Shown: positions 3,886-10,757 of the stretch, piece by piece
How positions within the stretch are numbered: the stretch's first letter is position 1
Layout: each line of letters starts with the position of its first letter
Source of the DNA: Candidatus Terraquivivens ruidianensis
GTDB taxonomy: Archaea; Thermoproteota; Nitrososphaeria_A; Caldarchaeales; Wolframiiraptoraceae
Reading direction: 5' to 3'
DNA: 64,000 nucleotides
Assembly: GCA_023267975.1 (NCBI GenBank)
Contig: JALNLA010000001.1
Location: forward strand, 124,001-188,000
The notes under the pieces: model-generated
The model's input: the letters and a program-made list of their open reading frames with translations, nothing else
Database searches by the model: none
Told to the model about the DNA's origin: nothing
Position numbers and translations under genes: made by a program

Positions 3886-5019
3886 TTGGCCAACAAAAAA
3901 ATCCGAATAAATCAGCCCGTAATTGATGAGGCAGAGGTGGAGGAGGTCTCCAAGCTCCTCAGGACGGGGATGCTCACTACGTGGCACGGCAGCGGTGAGA
4001 AGGCCGGTGAGTTTGAAAGAAGGTTCGCTTCATACGTAGGCGTCGAGTATGCAATCGCCGTAAACTCTGGAACCGCAGCCCTTCATGCGGCCCTTGCGGC
4101 ATGCGGCATAGGATATGGTGACGATGTCATAGTACCTGCGATGACTTTTGTGGCCACAGCCAACGTCGTGCTCATCCAAGGCGCTAGGCCTGTATTCGTG
4201 GACGTGGCCCCCGAAACGCTTTGCATGGACCCCGAAAAGTTCCAAAATGCAATAACGGAAAATACGAAGGCGGTAATACCTGTACATGTCTATGGATGCC
4301 CTGCCGAGATGGATGCCATAATGGATATCGCCGAGGATAAAGGCCTAATCGTCATCGAGGATGCCGCCCAAGCACATGGGGCAATCTACAAAGGTAGAAA
4401 GGCCGGTAGCATTGGCCATATAGGCTGCTTCAGCTTCTTCGCCAGCAAGAACATGACGACCGGTGAGGGCGGTATGATAACCACCAACGACGCCGAGTAT
4501 GCTAGGAGGTGTAGACTCTTCAGGACGCATGGTCAAGAAGAGGCACACATGGCCGTGATGCCAGGATTAAACTACAGGATGACGGAGTTCGAGGCTGCCA
4601 TAGGCATTGTACAGCTCTCGAAGTTGGACAGATTAAATGACATTAGGACGAGGAATGCAAATATCTTAGGGGGTTATCTTAAAGGCATACCCGCTATCGT
4701 CACACCAACTTTTCCTTTCTACATCAAGCCATCACACTACGTCTACACGATAAGAGTCAAGGGTGGGCTTAAAAAGTCGAGAGATGCACTCCAGAAGTAT
4801 CTCGTGGAGAATGGCATCGAGGCGGCCGTTTACTGGCCGAATCCCGTTCACCTGCACCCGCTCTACATGGGACTCTACGGCTATCAGAGGGGTTCACTGC
4901 CCGTGTCCGAGGAGGCTTCGGACGAGGTACTCTCTTTACCAGTGCATCCCAAAGTGAGTGACGAGGACTTACGCTACATGGCTGAAAAAATCAGGGAGTT
5001 TTTCTCGAGTGACTTTTAG
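3886..5019 (+). CDS. DegT/DnrJ/EryC1/StrS-family PLP aminotransferase
   Basis: The 377 residues match the usual length of this fold-type I family, which transaminates nucleotide-linked keto-sugars. The family landmarks are present: SGTAALHAAL (61-70), the aspartate of EDAAQAHGA (Asp159), and the PLP lysine in FFASKNMTTGEGG (Lys188). The TTG start at 3886 places RINQPVIDEAEVEEV at the normal N-terminus. No sugar dehydratase or transferase is nearby, so the substrate is open. Its stop codon overlaps that of the convergent aconitase-X small subunit (shared TTAG). Confidence 0.88.
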   Translation: MANKKIRINQPVIDEAEVEEVSKLLRTGMLTTWHGSGEKAGEFERRFASYVGVEYAIAVNSGTAALHAALAACGIGYGDDVIVPAMTFVATANVVLIQGARPVFVDVAPETLCMDPEKFQNAITENTKAVIPVHVYGCPAEMDAIMDIAEDKGLIVIEDAAQAHGAIYKGRKAGSIGHIGCFSFFASKNMTTGEGGMITTNDAEYARRCRLFRTHGQEEAHMAVMPGLNYRMTEFEAAIGIVQLSKLDRLNDIRTRNANILGGYLKGIPAIVTPTFPFYIKPSHYVYTIRVKGGLKKSRDALQKYLVENGIEAAVYWPNPVHLHPLYMGLYGYQRGSLPVSEEASDEVLSLPVHPKVSDEDLRYMAEKIREFFSSDF

Positions 5020-5417
5020 CGTCGCTCCACAACTATTTTTCCATCCTCTATCCTTACCCAGTCGCCACTTTTAAATTTGCTAGTGTCAATACAATCAACC
5101 GTGGGTATATCGCTTATTATCGCACCAACGGCAACTATAGGCTCGCACCTCTGGTTTATTATCGCCGATGGTGCCATGCCCTTTCTCTTTAATCTGTAGA
5201 TTATGTAAGAGCCAACCGTCGAGCCCTTTCCGTGTGGAAAGATGAGGACTTTCCCCGCTATGTTCTTCCCCTCTAACTCGTGGCCCCTTTCCCTAATTAT
5301 CCCAGTGTCGGGGTCAACGCCTCCGTAGAAGGATATCGGTTGCGATGAAACTAGCGCCTCACCTTCAGCCCTTCCTCTTTTTATGACCCTACCTTTCAGC
5401 TCTAAGATGTCATTCAT
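5016..5417 (-). CDS. Phosphomevalonate dehydratase small subunit (aconitase X swivelling domain, DUF126)
   Basis: A protein of 133 residues starting MNDILELKGRVIKRG. The conserved GKGSTVGSYIIYRL segment is the substrate-binding serine loop of AcnX small subunits, and INQRCEPIVAVGAIISDIPTVD is also typical. With the large subunit it should dehydrate (R)-5-phosphomevalonate to trans-anhydromevalonate 5-phosphate in the archaeal mevalonate route. ATG 5417 overlaps the large-subunit stop in an ATGA junction, which fixes the start. The downstream end overlaps the convergent DegT gene by 4 bp. Confidence 0.88.
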   Translation of the reverse strand: MNDILELKGRVIKRGRAEGEALVSSQPISFYGGVDPDTGIIRERGHELEGKNIAGKVLIFPHGKGSTVGSYIIYRLKRKGMAPSAIINQRCEPIVAVGAIISDIPTVDCIDTSKFKSGDWVRIEDGKIVVERR

Positions 5418-6595
5418 ATTGTCGCTTCCCTGATGCACTCTTCTGTCGACATCAACCTTACGCATAAATTGTTTAAGTTCCTCGAATACCATGCTCCTTT
5501 AGCTGAGTTCGTAGCAACGACTGTTACGCCCAAATCCTTTACGGGCGCGACTATGGGGCACGTATCACATAGAATCGTGCCACCAGCAACCTCTATAACC
5601 TGCGTTACGCCTAGCCTATCTGCCTCTAGCTTAACGCTCCTAGAACAGCATAGCCAGAGCTTCTTTCTAACCTTTTTTCCACTCAAAGCCGACGCAATCC
5701 CTTTAAGCTCCGTGAGCGAGAGATGGGGACAGCCGAGAAATATCAGGTCCGGATTCGCTTCGGTAGCGTACTCCTCTTTGACGTTCATTATGTCCGATTC
5801 CGTTATCGTAAGTTTCTCCACAGCTTTGTCTGCAGACCGCTCAGCCTCCGGTGTTATGCCCTCCACATGAAACATGGGCACGCCACCGACGCTGGCCAAC
5901 GCTGCGCCTAACGCCTTTAATTCATCTGGCTCAGCATGAAGGATTCCCTTAAAAAGCGGTATACCGTCACCGACGATTCTTCCGACGATGATGCCAAGGC
6001 AAGCAAACTCAAAATCTCCTTTTGGTTGCTGCACCCTAACCTCTACTGTCGGCCGACGGTTTTCCTCAAAGTGCAGGCCGTAGAGGGGTGTCCTACCGGT
6101 TATCGCCGCCGCCAGAGCGCTTATCCCGCTCTCCCTATTCGTCCTAGCACCTATGACGGAATTTGCGTAAACCACGGCCGAGCTCTCACCCCATGCGATG
6201 TGGTCACCCATTCTCGGCTCGTTGCCGACAAAGTATGGCGTGCACGTACAAGTTATCTCGATACCCATCCTACTGTAAACGTCTATCACCCTTAGCTGAT
6301 TCTCCACGAACTCTTTGTCGATGTTCATCGTGCTCCACCTTTCTAGGTCCATGCCTGCGGGGTTGAGCGTCGTCTTTACAAGAACCTTGCCGTCCGACGC
6401 GAGTTCTTCCAAAAACCCTAGCCCATCCTCACCTACGTTGGCGTACGATACGCCTGACACGTGGGCACTAGTTATCGGGACTAACCTCTCGGCGTCGTAA
6501 ATTTTTCCAAGCGCTACAAGTATCTCCATAGCCTTTTGCGCAGCGTATCCGAGCTCGCCAATTAGCATGCGCTCCTCTTCTTTTGAAAGATACAT
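5414..6595 (-). CDS. Phosphomevalonate dehydratase large subunit (aconitase X, DUF521)
   Basis: The 393 residues carry the AcnX hallmarks: CTCTPY near 117-122, WGESSAVVYANSVIGARTNRE, the cysteine of FLGCPHLSL and the C-terminal CDTCP, cysteines expected to bind the Fe-S cluster. It forms the catalytic partner of the small subunit encoded immediately downstream (4 bp overlap). In archaea these proteins were first annotated as hypothetical aconitases and later shown to be phosphomevalonate dehydratase. The adjacent UbiD- and UbiX-type genes support that role over the bacterial cis-3-hydroxyproline dehydratase role of other AcnX members. Confidence 0.88.
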   Translation of the reverse strand: MYLSKEEERMLIGELGYAAQKAMEILVALGKIYDAERLVPITSAHVSGVSYANVGEDGLGFLEELASDGKVLVKTTLNPAGMDLERWSTMNIDKEFVENQLRVIDVYSRMGIEITCTCTPYFVGNEPRMGDHIAWGESSAVVYANSVIGARTNRESGISALAAAITGRTPLYGLHFEENRRPTVEVRVQQPKGDFEFACLGIIVGRIVGDGIPLFKGILHAEPDELKALGAALASVGGVPMFHVEGITPEAERSADKAVEKLTITESDIMNVKEEYATEANPDLIFLGCPHLSLTELKGIASALSGKKVRKKLWLCCSRSVKLEADRLGVTQVIEVAGGTILCDTCPIVAPVKDLGVTVVATNSAKGAWYSRNLNNLCVRLMSTEECIREATI

Positions 6596-6629
6596 TTTAA
6601 TTACACCAATGGACGATGCGTGTCTTCAG

Positions 6630-7928
6630 CTAATTTATGTAGTCCTCAATCTTTATACTTTCCTCTCCCGGTATCTTAGCCTTTCTAAAGAGCTTCGGGT
6701 CAGCGTCTAAACATAGCGTGGCATCTATTCCGGCCTTGCATGTCTTCCGAGTATATTGGTCGGCGGACGGGTCCAAAGAGGAACCGTACTCGTTGGGCTT
6801 AAGCACTAAGCACTTGTCCAGCTGGACTCTTGTCGCCAACGCCCATTCCAGCTCAATCGGGTCGTCGATGTCTATGTCTTCGTCAACGACGATTACGTGC
6901 TTCAGGCTGCCGTGTCCCCTAAATGCTGCCTCTATGGCTTTTCTACCATCATCCTCATGTCTTTTCCTTATCTTAATGGCAGCGTGAAGCCACTTACAAC
7001 CACCGGGCGTTAACCTGACGTCCAAGCACTCGCAGACCTTTCCAACCTCCTTGTATATCGTCGCCTCCCTCGGTGTGCCCATCAAGGTTCTGTGCTCGCT
7101 GCCCGCCAGTAATATTGCTTGGAAGATTGGGTCATGTCTCATCGTCAAGCACTCTATCTCGATGACCCTCTGCTTCCTCACGACATCGTAGGTGCCTGTT
7201 ATGTCAAATATTGGACCCTCATCAACCCATTCGTCTGTTACAACGCCCTCCATCACAACCTCACAATCTGCGGGCACGAGTAACTCGTTCGTCACACACC
7301 TCGTGTACCTCATCTTTCTTAACGAGTTGGCTATGTCCAACTCGCTGAGACCTATCTTCCAAGTAACGGCCGCCGCTATCATGAAGGCAGGATGGTTTCC
7401 GAAAGTTATCGCCACGTTTCTATTGCCCCTGCGTATGAACTCGTCAAGATGTCTTGGAAGTATCCTGGCGACGACCCTGTTCTTACCTATCAGCATTAGT
7501 CTGTGGAAGCTGGCGTTGAACCCGTACTCCTTGTCATGGGCTATGATTATGCTGGCGGTTGCGTAGGGCCCACCGTCGTGCTGGCCAAAAATCAGGAAGG
7601 GCAACTTTGTCAGGTCAGGGTTTCGGTCGACTACTTGTTGGCACGGTGCATCCTCGACGATTTCGCCCTTGCTTGGGTTTTCTATGGCATCGTTCAGCTT
7701 CCTGAGTATAGCATCCTCGTCTACACCCAAGGCTTTTGCAAGAATCCTTCTATTGCCGCAAACGTTTGCCGCCAACTTGAATCCATCGTGTTCCTTAATC
7801 TTGTGAAAGAGCATCGGCTTTCCGTCGAGCTTCTTCATTATTGCGGCTGCCTCGAACTTCGTCGATACAGGCCTCACGATGTTAACGAGCTCTCCTGCCC
7901 TCTTAAGCTCATTCAGGAAATCCCTCAT
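6630..7928 (-). CDS. UbiD-family decarboxylase, probable anhydromevalonate phosphate decarboxylase
   Basis: A 432-residue UbiD-fold enzyme (MRDFLNELKRAGELVNI at the N-terminus; TASIIIAHDKEYGFNASFHRLMLIG and REATIYKEVGKVCE in the body). UbiD enzymes use prenylated FMN to decarboxylate unsaturated acids. The product of the neighbouring phosphomevalonate dehydratase, trans-anhydromevalonate phosphate, is the expected substrate, giving isopentenyl phosphate. ATG 7928 overlaps the UbiX stop as ATGA, so it is preferred to the ATG at 7937. The dehydratase large subunit begins 34 bp further on. Confidence 0.87.
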   Translation of the reverse strand: MRDFLNELKRAGELVNIVRPVSTKFEAAAIMKKLDGKPMLFHKIKEHDGFKLAANVCGNRRILAKALGVDEDAILRKLNDAIENPSKGEIVEDAPCQQVVDRNPDLTKLPFLIFGQHDGGPYATASIIIAHDKEYGFNASFHRLMLIGKNRVVARILPRHLDEFIRRGNRNVAITFGNHPAFMIAAAVTWKIGLSELDIANSLRKMRYTRCVTNELLVPADCEVVMEGVVTDEWVDEGPIFDITGTYDVVRKQRVIEIECLTMRHDPIFQAILLAGSEHRTLMGTPREATIYKEVGKVCECLDVRLTPGGCKWLHAAIKIRKRHEDDGRKAIEAAFRGHGSLKHVIVVDEDIDIDDPIELEWALATRVQLDKCLVLKPNEYGSSLDPSADQYTRKTCKAGIDATLCLDADPKLFRKAKIPGEESIKIEDYIN

Positions 7929-8473
7929 TTTCCCCACCTTTTGTATAAATCGTGCTCGATTCCAAGGATTTCCAGCACCCTCCCGACTATGAAATCAATA
8001 AGGTCTTGGATAGTCTTCGGTGAGTGGTAAAACGTTAGGACCGGCGGTAGCACAACGGCGCCTGCCCTAGTTGCCTTAAGCATGTTGACGATGTATGGTT
8101 CGGCTAAAGGCGTTTCACGCGGTACTAGGATTAGTTTCCTTCTCTGCTTAATAGAGACGAGTGCTGCCCTTACGATCAAGTTTTCTTCCATGCCGTTAGC
8201 GATGGCGGCAAGCGTCTTCATGGAGCACGGAACGACCACCATACCATCAACGAAGAAAGAGCCGCTCGAGAGCGGAGCTTCGAGCTCATCTTCCCGAAAA
8301 ATCTTGTCCGCATATGACTTTACCTTCTTGAGGTCCGCTTCGGCCTGAACGAGGGCTTCGCCGTTCTTGGAGAGAATCAAGTAAATTTGGTGCTTACCTG
8401 CCTTCAAAACCTCCAGTAACCTCTCCGCTATAGGCGCACCTGATGCTCCCGTTATCGCTACGATAATCCTCAT
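7925..8473 (-). CDS. ubiX: UbiX-family flavin prenyltransferase
   Basis: The 182-residue flavoprotein begins with MRIIVAITGASGAPIAERLLE, the Rossmann-like FMN-binding start, and has the family segments DGMVVVPCSMKTLAAIANG, LVPRETPL and MLKATRAGAVVLPP. UbiX makes prenylated FMN from FMN and dimethylallyl (pyro)phosphate. This cofactor is what the adjacent UbiD-type decarboxylase needs, and the two genes overlap by 4 bp. A TATA-like TTTATTAG about 26 bp upstream suggests that the four-gene unit starts here. Confidence 0.93.
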   Translation of the reverse strand: MRIIVAITGASGAPIAERLLEVLKAGKHQIYLILSKNGEALVQAEADLKKVKSYADKIFREDELEAPLSSGSFFVDGMVVVPCSMKTLAAIANGMEENLIVRAALVSIKQRRKLILVPRETPLAEPYIVNMLKATRAGAVVLPPVLTFYHSPKTIQDLIDFIVGRVLEILGIEHDLYKRWGK

Positions 8474-8515: not shown

Positions 8516-9985
8516 TCATGCTGTGAGCTCTGACGATAGGGCTGCTTCTCCCTTCCTCGTAAGTACATAGACTTTCTTTTTCCTTTCCGACGGGCCTCTT
8601 TCGTTTGCAATCATTACCATGCCCGCAGCCGTCAGCTCCTGTAAATGCTGGTACATGGAAGGCAACGTGATGGACAGACCGAATTCCTGTGTGAGGGCTT
8701 TCCATAAAAGATATCCATGGCTCGGATGCCTTTGCAAAATTTTTAGTATTAGGCGCTTTGTCCTTCCTAATCGGCTGTCTAATGAGGATGCAAGAACGAG
8801 CGCTATAGGGGCCTCCACGGCTGAGCGTTTTATCAGACCCTTGATGGTCGCTGGGTCCTTCAAACCTGCACCCGTTATTATACATACGACTCTGTCAGAC
8901 CTTTCTACTATTCCATCTTCCAAAGCAACCTTAAGGGCTGCTACTGTTGAGGCAGCGGCAGGTTCGGCAAAGATTCCCTCACACTTGGCCAAGAGCCTCG
9001 TGGCCTCTAGTATTCTCTTCTCTGATACTGCTAGAGCGCAACCGTTCGATTCCCTTAGGGCTTTCAGACAGAGTTCTCCTAGCATGGGTTGTCTGACCGC
9101 TATGTCATGGAACGTCATCCCAAGCTCCTTAGACTTAACAGGTTTGTCGAGGTTCTTTCTGAGCGCATCGACTATAGGCGAGCAACCTTTGGCCTGAACG
9201 CCCAGCATCCTTGAATGTGTATCATCTATAAGCCCGATATTGTTCAACTCCCTCAGAGCTTTCCATACCATCGATAGGTGTCCGCCCTCGCCAACAGGTA
9301 CGATGAAGAATTCAGGAGGGGCCCAGCCAAGCTGCTCGCAAACCTCGTACCCAGTGGTTTTTATCCCTTCGAGAAAGAACGGGCTCGTCACGGATATTAC
9401 GTACCATCCCTTATACGGACGCTCCAGTATCCTGATGGCATCGTCGTATGTTTTAACAAAGCTTATCTCAGCACCGCAAACGATGGCCTGATAAAGCTTC
9501 CCTAACTCGATACCTAACGTCGTGTAAATCGTGCAACCTAAACCTGCCTTCGCTGAGTATGCAGCAGCCGAAGCACCTAAGTTTCCCCTGCTCGCGCACT
9601 TGACGCCACGGTAGCCCCTGTTCTTCGCCCTCGTGACTTCGACGGAAACTCCCCTGTCTAAGAAAGAGCCAGTAGGGTTTATTGTCTCGTTCTTCAGATA
9701 CAAGTTCCTGATTCCAAGCTCCTCTCCCAACCTTTCAGCCTTCTGAAGGAAGGTGCCGCCCTCGCCCAAGGACACGATAAGGTCGCTCTCCATGAGTGGT
9801 AGAAAGAACGAATACTTCCACATACTCGGAGGAGTTTTTGCGAGTTTTTCCCTACTTACGACGAACGAGAGTTGGTCGTAATCGTAATCGATAAGTGCTT
9901 GGCTGCCGCAGCTTGGGCAGCGTATCGGGTTTTCTATCCCTTCGATACGTCTACCACATCCTGTGCATGAAAGCCTAAATTTCAC
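8516..9985 (-). CDS. Threonine-synthase-like fold-type II protein lacking the PLP lysine, fused to a PadR-like winged helix
   Basis: GTG 9985 gives 489 residues; a frame open further upstream to 10117 runs through the shared promoter and into the divergent gene, so it is rejected. Order: zinc ribbon with Cys7, 10, 23, 26; a threonine-synthase core; a PadR-type winged helix at about 405-489 (HGYLLWKALTQEFG, SMYQHLQELTAAGMV, VYVLTRKGEAAL). In threonine synthase the PLP lysine sits in PTGSFKDRG; here the segment is PTGSFLDRG, with Leu109 encoded by TTA at 9659-9661. The asparagine motif (CASRGNLGAS) and a glycine-rich phosphate loop (VGEGGH) remain. It is probably a transcription regulator using a dead enzyme as ligand sensor rather than a working synthase. 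It is divergent from an ECF transporter S component. Confidence 0.8.
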   Translation of the reverse strand: MKFRLSCTGCGRRIEGIENPIRCPSCGSQALIDYDYDQLSFVVSREKLAKTPPSMWKYSFFLPLMESDLIVSLGEGGTFLQKAERLGEELGIRNLYLKNETINPTGSFLDRGVSVEVTRAKNRGYRGVKCASRGNLGASAAAYSAKAGLGCTIYTTLGIELGKLYQAIVCGAEISFVKTYDDAIRILERPYKGWYVISVTSPFFLEGIKTTGYEVCEQLGWAPPEFFIVPVGEGGHLSMVWKALRELNNIGLIDDTHSRMLGVQAKGCSPIVDALRKNLDKPVKSKELGMTFHDIAVRQPMLGELCLKALRESNGCALAVSEKRILEATRLLAKCEGIFAEPAAASTVAALKVALEDGIVERSDRVVCIITGAGLKDPATIKGLIKRSAVEAPIALVLASSLDSRLGRTKRLILKILQRHPSHGYLLWKALTQEFGLSITLPSMYQHLQELTAAGMVMIANERGPSERKKKVYVLTRKGEAALSSELTA

Positions 9986-10008
9986 GTAGCCTATATGTAG
10001 GTTGAAAC

Positions 10009-10022
10009 TTATATATTTTGTT
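10009..10022. promoter_or_regulatory. Shared TATA element between divergent regulator and ECF gene
   Basis: ACTTATATATTTTG contains a near-palindromic TATATA. It lies about 29 bp from GTG 9985 on the minus strand and about 24 bp from ATG 10038 on the plus strand. One element could therefore serve leaderless transcription in both directions and expose both genes to the same regulator. Confidence 0.5.
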
Positions 10023-10037
10023 TTCCGAAATTTTTGT

Positions 10038-10757
10038 ATGCAACGCCGCAGCATAATCGTCGCAAAGCTCGCAGTCTTTACGTCGCTGGTTGCCGTTGCC
10101 ACGATGATCTTATCCATCTACGTACCGGCTACCAGAGGCTACTTCAATTTGGGCGAAACGATGATATACTTCACGGCCCTCGTGGTAGGGCCTGGGATAG
10201 CCGCGTTTGCCGGCGGCGTAGGTTCTATGCTGGCCGACTTGGTACTAGGCTACTATTACTATGCTCCCGCAACGCTCCTCATAAAGGCAGCTGAGGGTGC
10301 ACTTGTCGGTTACCTTGTCAGAAAAGTCCCGAAGAAGGGCGGATGGCAGCTTGCGGTGGCGTCTTATGCGCTCGTCGCCGGATATTTTATGCTCATACTT
10401 CTGATAGGAATTACGCTGTTCGTCGGAGAAATCGAGGTCTCTATACTCCCAGTTGGTGAGAGTGCACAATCCTTCATTTTCACGGTTGCGCCCTATTCAT
10501 GGATTGGTCTGGCAGCCTTAGCGGTAGCCACGCCGGTCTACTTTGTCGTTAAAGAAAGGGGGCACGAGGGTTGGTTGATACTTTCCCTACTCCTCGGTGG
10601 ACTTCTTATGGTCTTGGGATACTTTGTGTACGAGCAGTTCTTCTTGGGCGTCGCTGCCCTGGTCGAGATACCCGTGAACCTCGGACAGTCGATAATAGGT
10701 ACGGCGGTCGCGATACCGCTTTACAAAGCATTCAGAAGATTGTACCGAACTGCTTAA
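10038..10757 (+). CDS. ECF transporter S component (vitamin-type substrate-binding membrane protein)
   Basis: The 239-residue hydrophobic protein has about six membrane segments, beginning IIVAKLAVFTSLVAVATMIL. The stretch GETMIYFTALVVGPGIAAFAGGVGSMLADL followed by APATLLIKAAEGALVGYL is typical of S components of energy-coupling-factor importers (HmpT/ThiT/RibU-like group). ATPase and EcfT subunits are not in the window and would be shared. The substrate is a vitamin or cofactor precursor by family, not identified. ATG 10038 is chosen because of the TATA box 24 bp upstream. The adjacent PLP-fold regulator suggests, as inference only, vitamin B6 or a related compound. Confidence 0.82.
   Translation: MQRRSIIVAKLAVFTSLVAVATMILSIYVPATRGYFNLGETMIYFTALVVGPGIAAFAGGVGSMLADLVLGYYYYAPATLLIKAAEGALVGYLVRKVPKKGGWQLAVASYALVAGYFMLILLIGITLFVGEIEVSILPVGESAQSFIFTVAPYSWIGLAALAVATPVYFVVKERGHEGWLILSLLLGGLLMVLGYFVYEQFFLGVAALVEIPVNLGQSIIGTAVAIPLYKAFRRLYRTA

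Follow-up and report, generated by a model that had tools for sequence, protein, structure and literature searches.

Known archaeal vitamin regulators include RbkR and ThiR, in which a helix-turn-helix is fused to a domain of cofactor metabolism, and known PadR proteins are small stand-alone dimers. The MocR/PdxR regulators (GabR, PdxR, TauR) fuse a winged helix to a sensor derived from a PLP enzyme, the helix being of GntR type and N-terminal and the sensor a fold-type I aminotransferase. The regulons of PdxR comprise pdxST, pdxK and pdxU, the same kinds of target as the neighbours of the fusion gene described here, and archaea are said to have no MocR regulators (PMC5320631). Vitamin B6 transporters have been called mysterious in most species, and two of the three that are characterised, PdxU and PdxU2/HmpT, belong to PF07155 (PMC9997740); HmpT, represented by the structure 4hzu_S, is a reported pyridoxamine carrier (PMC4860826).

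The window, i.e. the whole 64,000-nucleotide stretch of DNA analysed, contains a gene that resembles several of these systems. Like MocR its product joins a winged helix to a PLP-enzyme-derived sensor, but the helix is PadR-type and C-terminal, and the sensor is a fold-type II threonine-synthase domain without the PLP lysine; an N-terminal GntR helix and a fold-type I domain were sought in the fusion protein and neither is present. It shares with ThrC (including the NCBIfam families NF004170 and NF006050) the zinc ribbon, the fold-type II core and most PLP contacts, but differs in the missing lysine, the added PadR domain and the B6-gene neighbours. Its C-terminal domain matches the PadR family (PF03551), although here it is joined to a large enzyme-derived sensor, and as in RbkR and ThiR an archaeal helix-turn-helix is fused to a domain from the metabolism of the same cofactor, whereas theirs are riboflavin kinase and ThiN domains, serving other vitamins and not of a PLP-enzyme fold. 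The divergent neighbour is a PF07155 protein, as are HmpT and PdxU, with HmpT its nearest solved relative. A literature search outside the subscription journals found no description of a threonine synthase-PadR fusion or of an archaeal B6 regulator. The features of the locus are as follows.

8516-9985, minus strand: ThrC-like/PadR fusion protein, 489 aa (translation; PALP and PadR in one frame; congener orthologues)
9908-9967, minus: N-terminal zinc ribbon (Cys7, Cys10, Cys23, Cys26), cysteines kept in 94-98% of 52 fusions
9650-9679, minus: NPTGSFLDRG, residues 103-112, from alignment to T. thermophilus threonine synthase
9659-9661, minus: Leu109 codon TTA, in place of the PLP lysine (aligned to Lys61)
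9581-9583, minus: Asn135, aligned to T. thermophilus Asn87, kept in 90% of fusions
9278-9292, minus: Gly-rich phosphate loop GEGGH, residues 232-236, aligned to ThrC GNAGN, G232 kept in 94%
8873-8875, minus: Thr371, aligned to T. thermophilus Thr317, kept in 88% of fusions
8534-8749, minus: PadR-type winged helix, residues 413-484 (PF03551)
9990-10001, unstranded: palindromic putative operator CCTATATGTAGG (consensus CCTAYATRTAGG), the sole exact site in the genome
10008-10019, unstranded: near-symmetric TATA element, AAAATATATAAG on the minus strand, conserved as ATATATAA in the genus alignment
10038-10757, plus: ECF transporter S component, PF07155 (90 bits), HmpT-like by profile, proposed vitamin B6 importer

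Architecture of the fusion protein

The fusion gene starts with GTG at 9985 and encodes a zinc ribbon, fold-type II core and PadR domain in that order. A 533-aa open reading frame from 10117 was rejected as the gene, being too long and overlapping the divergent promoter and gene, while GTG 9985 fits the relatives. Pfam places PALP at residues 71-372 (222 bits) and PadR at 413-484 (45 bits), both above their cut-offs (27 bits for PadR), and finds no domain besides. The nearest solved sequence relative is the threonine synthase 2zsj (E 5e-62), identity to solved threonine synthases is about 37%, and the AlphaFold model (pLDDT 86.8) has threonine synthases as its top PDB fold matches (TMt 0.85). 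The PadR region has its best PDB sequence matches among PadR-family proteins, though weakly (3hhh, E 8e-4). In the model it shows the helices and wing strands, and the chain, built as a single copy, ends with one helix (477-488), which was compared with the C-terminal dimerisation helices of PadR.

Alignment sets Lys61, Asn87, Thr317 and GNAGN 187-191 of T. thermophilus threonine synthase against Leu109, Asn135, Thr371 and GEGGH 232-236. In that enzyme Lys61 binds PLP, with Asn87 contacting its O3' and Thr317 its N1. An earlier note on this DNA, made from the letters alone, had described a PLP-lysine-less threonine-synthase-like protein (SFLDRG) with the Asn motif and phosphate loop kept and a PadR-like C-terminus, a description borne out on each point by the alignment, the conservation figures above and the Pfam match. 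It had also named a read error at 9659-9661 as a possible source of the missing lysine. This can be set aside: TTA is two changes from Lys, so that one base error cannot restore it, and all five congeners read SFLDRG too. Two further ThrC-like proteins in the same genome carry the lysine (SFKDR).

Loss of the lysine across the fusion clade

All five congeners carry a full-length orthologue of the fusion in the corresponding position (78-84% identity), and full-length relatives that are 36-46% identical come from further families within the order and the phylum. The nearest named record is Candidatus Terraquivivens; others are from Pelearchaeum, Caldarchaeum, Bathyarchaeota, Brockarchaeota, Nitrososphaerales and Thermoplasmata, and, among Asgard archaea, Thorarchaeota, Hermodarchaeum and Lokiarchaeota. 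In a tree of core columns, from which the Lys column and the PadR region were taken out, the fusions form one clade (support 99/95), apart from the Lys-bearing synthases; the clade extends across Thermoproteota and also includes records from Asgard archaea and Thermoplasmata.

The PLP lysine is absent from 60 of the 61 fusion loci examined. Position 109 is Lys in all 24 true threonine synthases and in only 1 of 52 fusions, making it the most divergent position of the core; the change is less complete at every other conserved core residue, and unfused ThrC proteins keep SFKDR. The earlier note had singled out the replacement by Leu. The loss itself is conserved but the residue is not: Leu, Ile, Met, Val, Ala or Thr in an aliphatic/polar clade, Asn or Ser in further members, and Arg in a sister clade, whose members are labelled threonine synthase by NCBIfam NF004170. 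Fusion homologues that retain SFKDRG, which that note held would count against its reading, number one in 61. This sole fusion reading SFKDR (L112, 4662-6074) is nested inside the Arg clade, so its lysine has probably been regained. We think it quite probable that the lineage descends from a duplicated threonine synthase through loss of the PLP lysine and addition of a PadR winged helix at the C-terminus. In one family, f14, an Arg-type fusion is the divergent neighbour of a true threonine synthase that has the lysine (L100, L105, L108 and L220; genomes G053, G088, G130 and G224), perhaps a trace of the founding duplication, perhaps another target.

B6-gene neighbours and a shared palindrome

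The S component at 10038-10757 has a single PDB relative in profile searches, 4hzu_S (HmpT, E 4e-22). HmpT Glu41 is kept in it and HmpT His84 corresponds to an invariant Lys, so its vitamer preference may differ from that of HmpT. A PF07155 S component is adjacent to the fusion, divergent or directly downstream, at 41 of 61 loci, with divergent S components also at the Asgard members; both the domain order and the ECF neighbour noted earlier are thus found in other archaea. At six Arg-clade loci (L092, L093, L094, L102, L104, L130) the fusion is followed, in this order, by an S component, a double ABC ATPase and then a T-like membrane protein, which together make a whole ECF transporter. The genome of the window carries two EcfT-like proteins, which the S component could use, and a ThiD-type kinase. 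At five loci in separate parts of the tree (L123, L145, L147, L212, L213) the fusion is instead divergent from pdxS-pdxT, and at about one third of the sampled fusion loci neither an S component nor pdxS is adjacent.

Three further arrangements were observed. A short, more diverged Lys-less ThrC-like form belongs to pdxS-pdxT operons or clusters in several archaeal families (G206, G131, G136, G201, G168, G194, G225; coordinates L228:4409-5533, L229:5017-6159, L284:4593-5720, L285:1308-2399, L286:3969-5114, L287:4016-5155 and L289:791-1954). Most copies read NPTGSYADR or SDR, and the C-terminus is winged-helix-like, although a Pfam PadR match was sought and none was found; the regulator may thus exist in two forms, this being the second. 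An AIR-synthase-superfamily protein, scoring between HypE and ThiL, lies repeatedly downstream of the S component (L128:9504-10514 and nine other loci). In the window, a gap of 42 bases separates the fusion gene from downstream genes of the same orientation for UbiX, UbiD and two aconitase X subunits (5016-8473, minus). This block is conserved in the congeners, resembles the anhydromevalonate-phosphate branch of the archaeal mevalonate pathway and may share a transcript with the fusion gene.

The 12-bp palindrome CCTAYATRTAGG occurs exactly once in the genome, at 9990-10001, where it (CCTAYATATAGG) lies within an invariant block of the genus alignment, between the TATA box and the fusion start codon. 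It likewise occurs exactly once in each of the five congeners, always in the gap between fusion and S component. Eleven more distant genomes also have it at the fusion, whereas hits to the reversed control pattern are scattered; the window control was searched with one mismatch. Aliphatic-clade upstream regions (n = 61) hold the exact site in 25 cases and a site with at most two mismatches in 39, and exact palindromes are found in none of the 25 Arg-clade upstream regions, for which no common operator was found. The sites remote from the fusion carry the most weight. In G035, in which fusion and S component are unlinked, the sole exact site precedes the S-component gene on another contig, and in G085 exact sites precede an unlinked S component and, by 49 bases, an unlinked pdxS. 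In L212 and L213 exact sites lie in the gap that separates the fusion from pdxS, and L123, L145 and L147 have a common variant, CCATATATGG. Matches away from B6 genes (G007, G027, G038, G053, G054, G058) look like chance. A general promoter element is ruled out, since each genome of the genus holds a single exact copy. The regulon deduced from these sites would comprise the fusion gene, the S component and pdxS-pdxT.

Each start codon is some 25-28 bases away from the TATA element, which makes leaderless transcripts probable in both directions. The earlier note had described a symmetric TATA serving both genes: a near-symmetric TATA is present, at 10008-10019, and its two-way use for fusion gene and S component is plausible, but the key element appears to be the palindrome, which that note had overlooked.

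Phylogenetic profiles were drawn over 250 genomes of the phylum, with 73 carriers of the fusion among the matches listed, a few weak fusions perhaps counted as non-carriers. On the matches listed, PdxS is present in 10 of 73 carriers against 108 of 177 non-carriers (p 2e-12), or 3 of 30 against 16 of 31 at the family level (p 7e-4), and the ThiC control is not significantly associated with carrier status at the family level. An S component is present in 68 of the 73 carriers among the matches listed. S component and PdxS largely replace each other (S component only 114, PdxS only 100, both 18, neither 18; p 1e-31, or 2e-7 at the family level), and in genomes without PdxS the S component is found in 87% and 85%, regardless of ThiC. 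HMP/thiamine was rejected as the vitamin, as the S component tracks PdxS and not ThiC. The genome of the window has just one PF07155 S component by profile and no match to PdxS, ThiC or RibH, from which we predict that the organism must import B6, precursors of thiamine, and riboflavin.

A predicted regulator of vitamin B6 acquisition

With good confidence we regard the fusion as a dedicated archaeal regulator of vitamin B6 acquisition that would sense PLP and act, probably, as a repressor, and, as part of the same reading, the S component at 10038-10757 as an importer of B6 vitamers. The earlier note's proposal of a fold-type II counterpart of MocR controlling import, and sensing PLP, an amino acid or a vitamin precursor, is supported at the level of genomic evidence. 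Its candidate ligand is narrowed to vitamin B6 by the HmpT-like S component, the adjacency to pdxS-pdxT and the single putative operator shared by the promoters of fusion, S component and pdxS. In the proposed mechanism a copy of threonine synthase would have lost its lysine, and therefore the Schiff base and catalysis, while retaining the pocket that holds the ring and phosphate of PLP and adding PadR. When PLP is plentiful, this putative ligand would bind in the pocket reversibly and non-covalently, and the loaded protein would grip its predicted site, the palindrome between TATA box and start codon, blocking its own gene and the divergent S component, or pdxS-pdxT where B6 is made. As PLP falls the block would be released, PLP serving as co-repressor. 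This sign of control is favoured because a protein on the palindrome would cover the start site of the fusion gene.

The same kind of regulator could instead serve riboflavin or another cofactor, imported by the S component and sensed through a remodelled pocket. The Pfam name of PF07155 is that of a riboflavin S component, neither the genome of the window nor most S-component carriers have RibH, and the S component is rarer where RibH is present; even among PdxS-positive genomes it is commoner without RibH (15/40 against 3/78). Since RibH is depleted where the S component occurs, the profiles alone do not single out B6. However, where RibH is lacking, genomes with PdxS still tend strongly to be without the S component (present in 15 of 40 with PdxS against 108 of 123 without, p 1.5e-9), its only PDB relative is HmpT and not RibU, and the PLP pocket residues are kept in the fusions. 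Fusion and operator are moreover found on pdxS-pdxT promoters, and because of these palindrome sites at pdxS we prefer B6 over riboflavin, which we consider unlikely.

The origin of the sensor domain in threonine synthase, and the f14 loci at which the fusion faces a true threonine synthase, would also suit a sensor of threonine, O-phosphohomoserine or an amino acid-PLP adduct that controls amino acid metabolism, the B6 genes being controlled solely because those enzymes are supplied with PLP. This appears distinctly improbable, as that adjacency is confined to one sampled family and fits an origin by tandem duplication, neighbours and operator sites elsewhere are B6 genes, and no internal aldimine can form without the lysine. 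It is more doubtful still, to the point of being very improbable, that the protein is a threonine synthase working without the canonical lysine and fused to a regulatory domain. NCBIfam models do call it threonine synthase (NF006050, 303 bits, equal to the cut-off), but the lysine is replaced by several residue types in one clade, the aliphatic/polar one, and by Arg in its sister, and the genome carries the two other SFKDR ThrC-like proteins.

A B6-sensing repressor, the preferred reading, has several implications. It is likely that the fusion represents an archaeal lysine-less PLP-sensing factor independent of MocR/PdxR, which would identify a B6 regulator in several phyla together with a B6 importer. 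If this is correct, archaea would have a candidate B6 regulator and importer with a defined putative operator and a candidate ligand, and the "threonine synthase" annotations in many archaeal genomes would be corrected. Two unrelated PLP-enzyme folds would then have become PLP sensors, one in bacteria and one in archaea, and in the archaeal case removal of the catalytic lysine would be what makes cofactor binding reversible.
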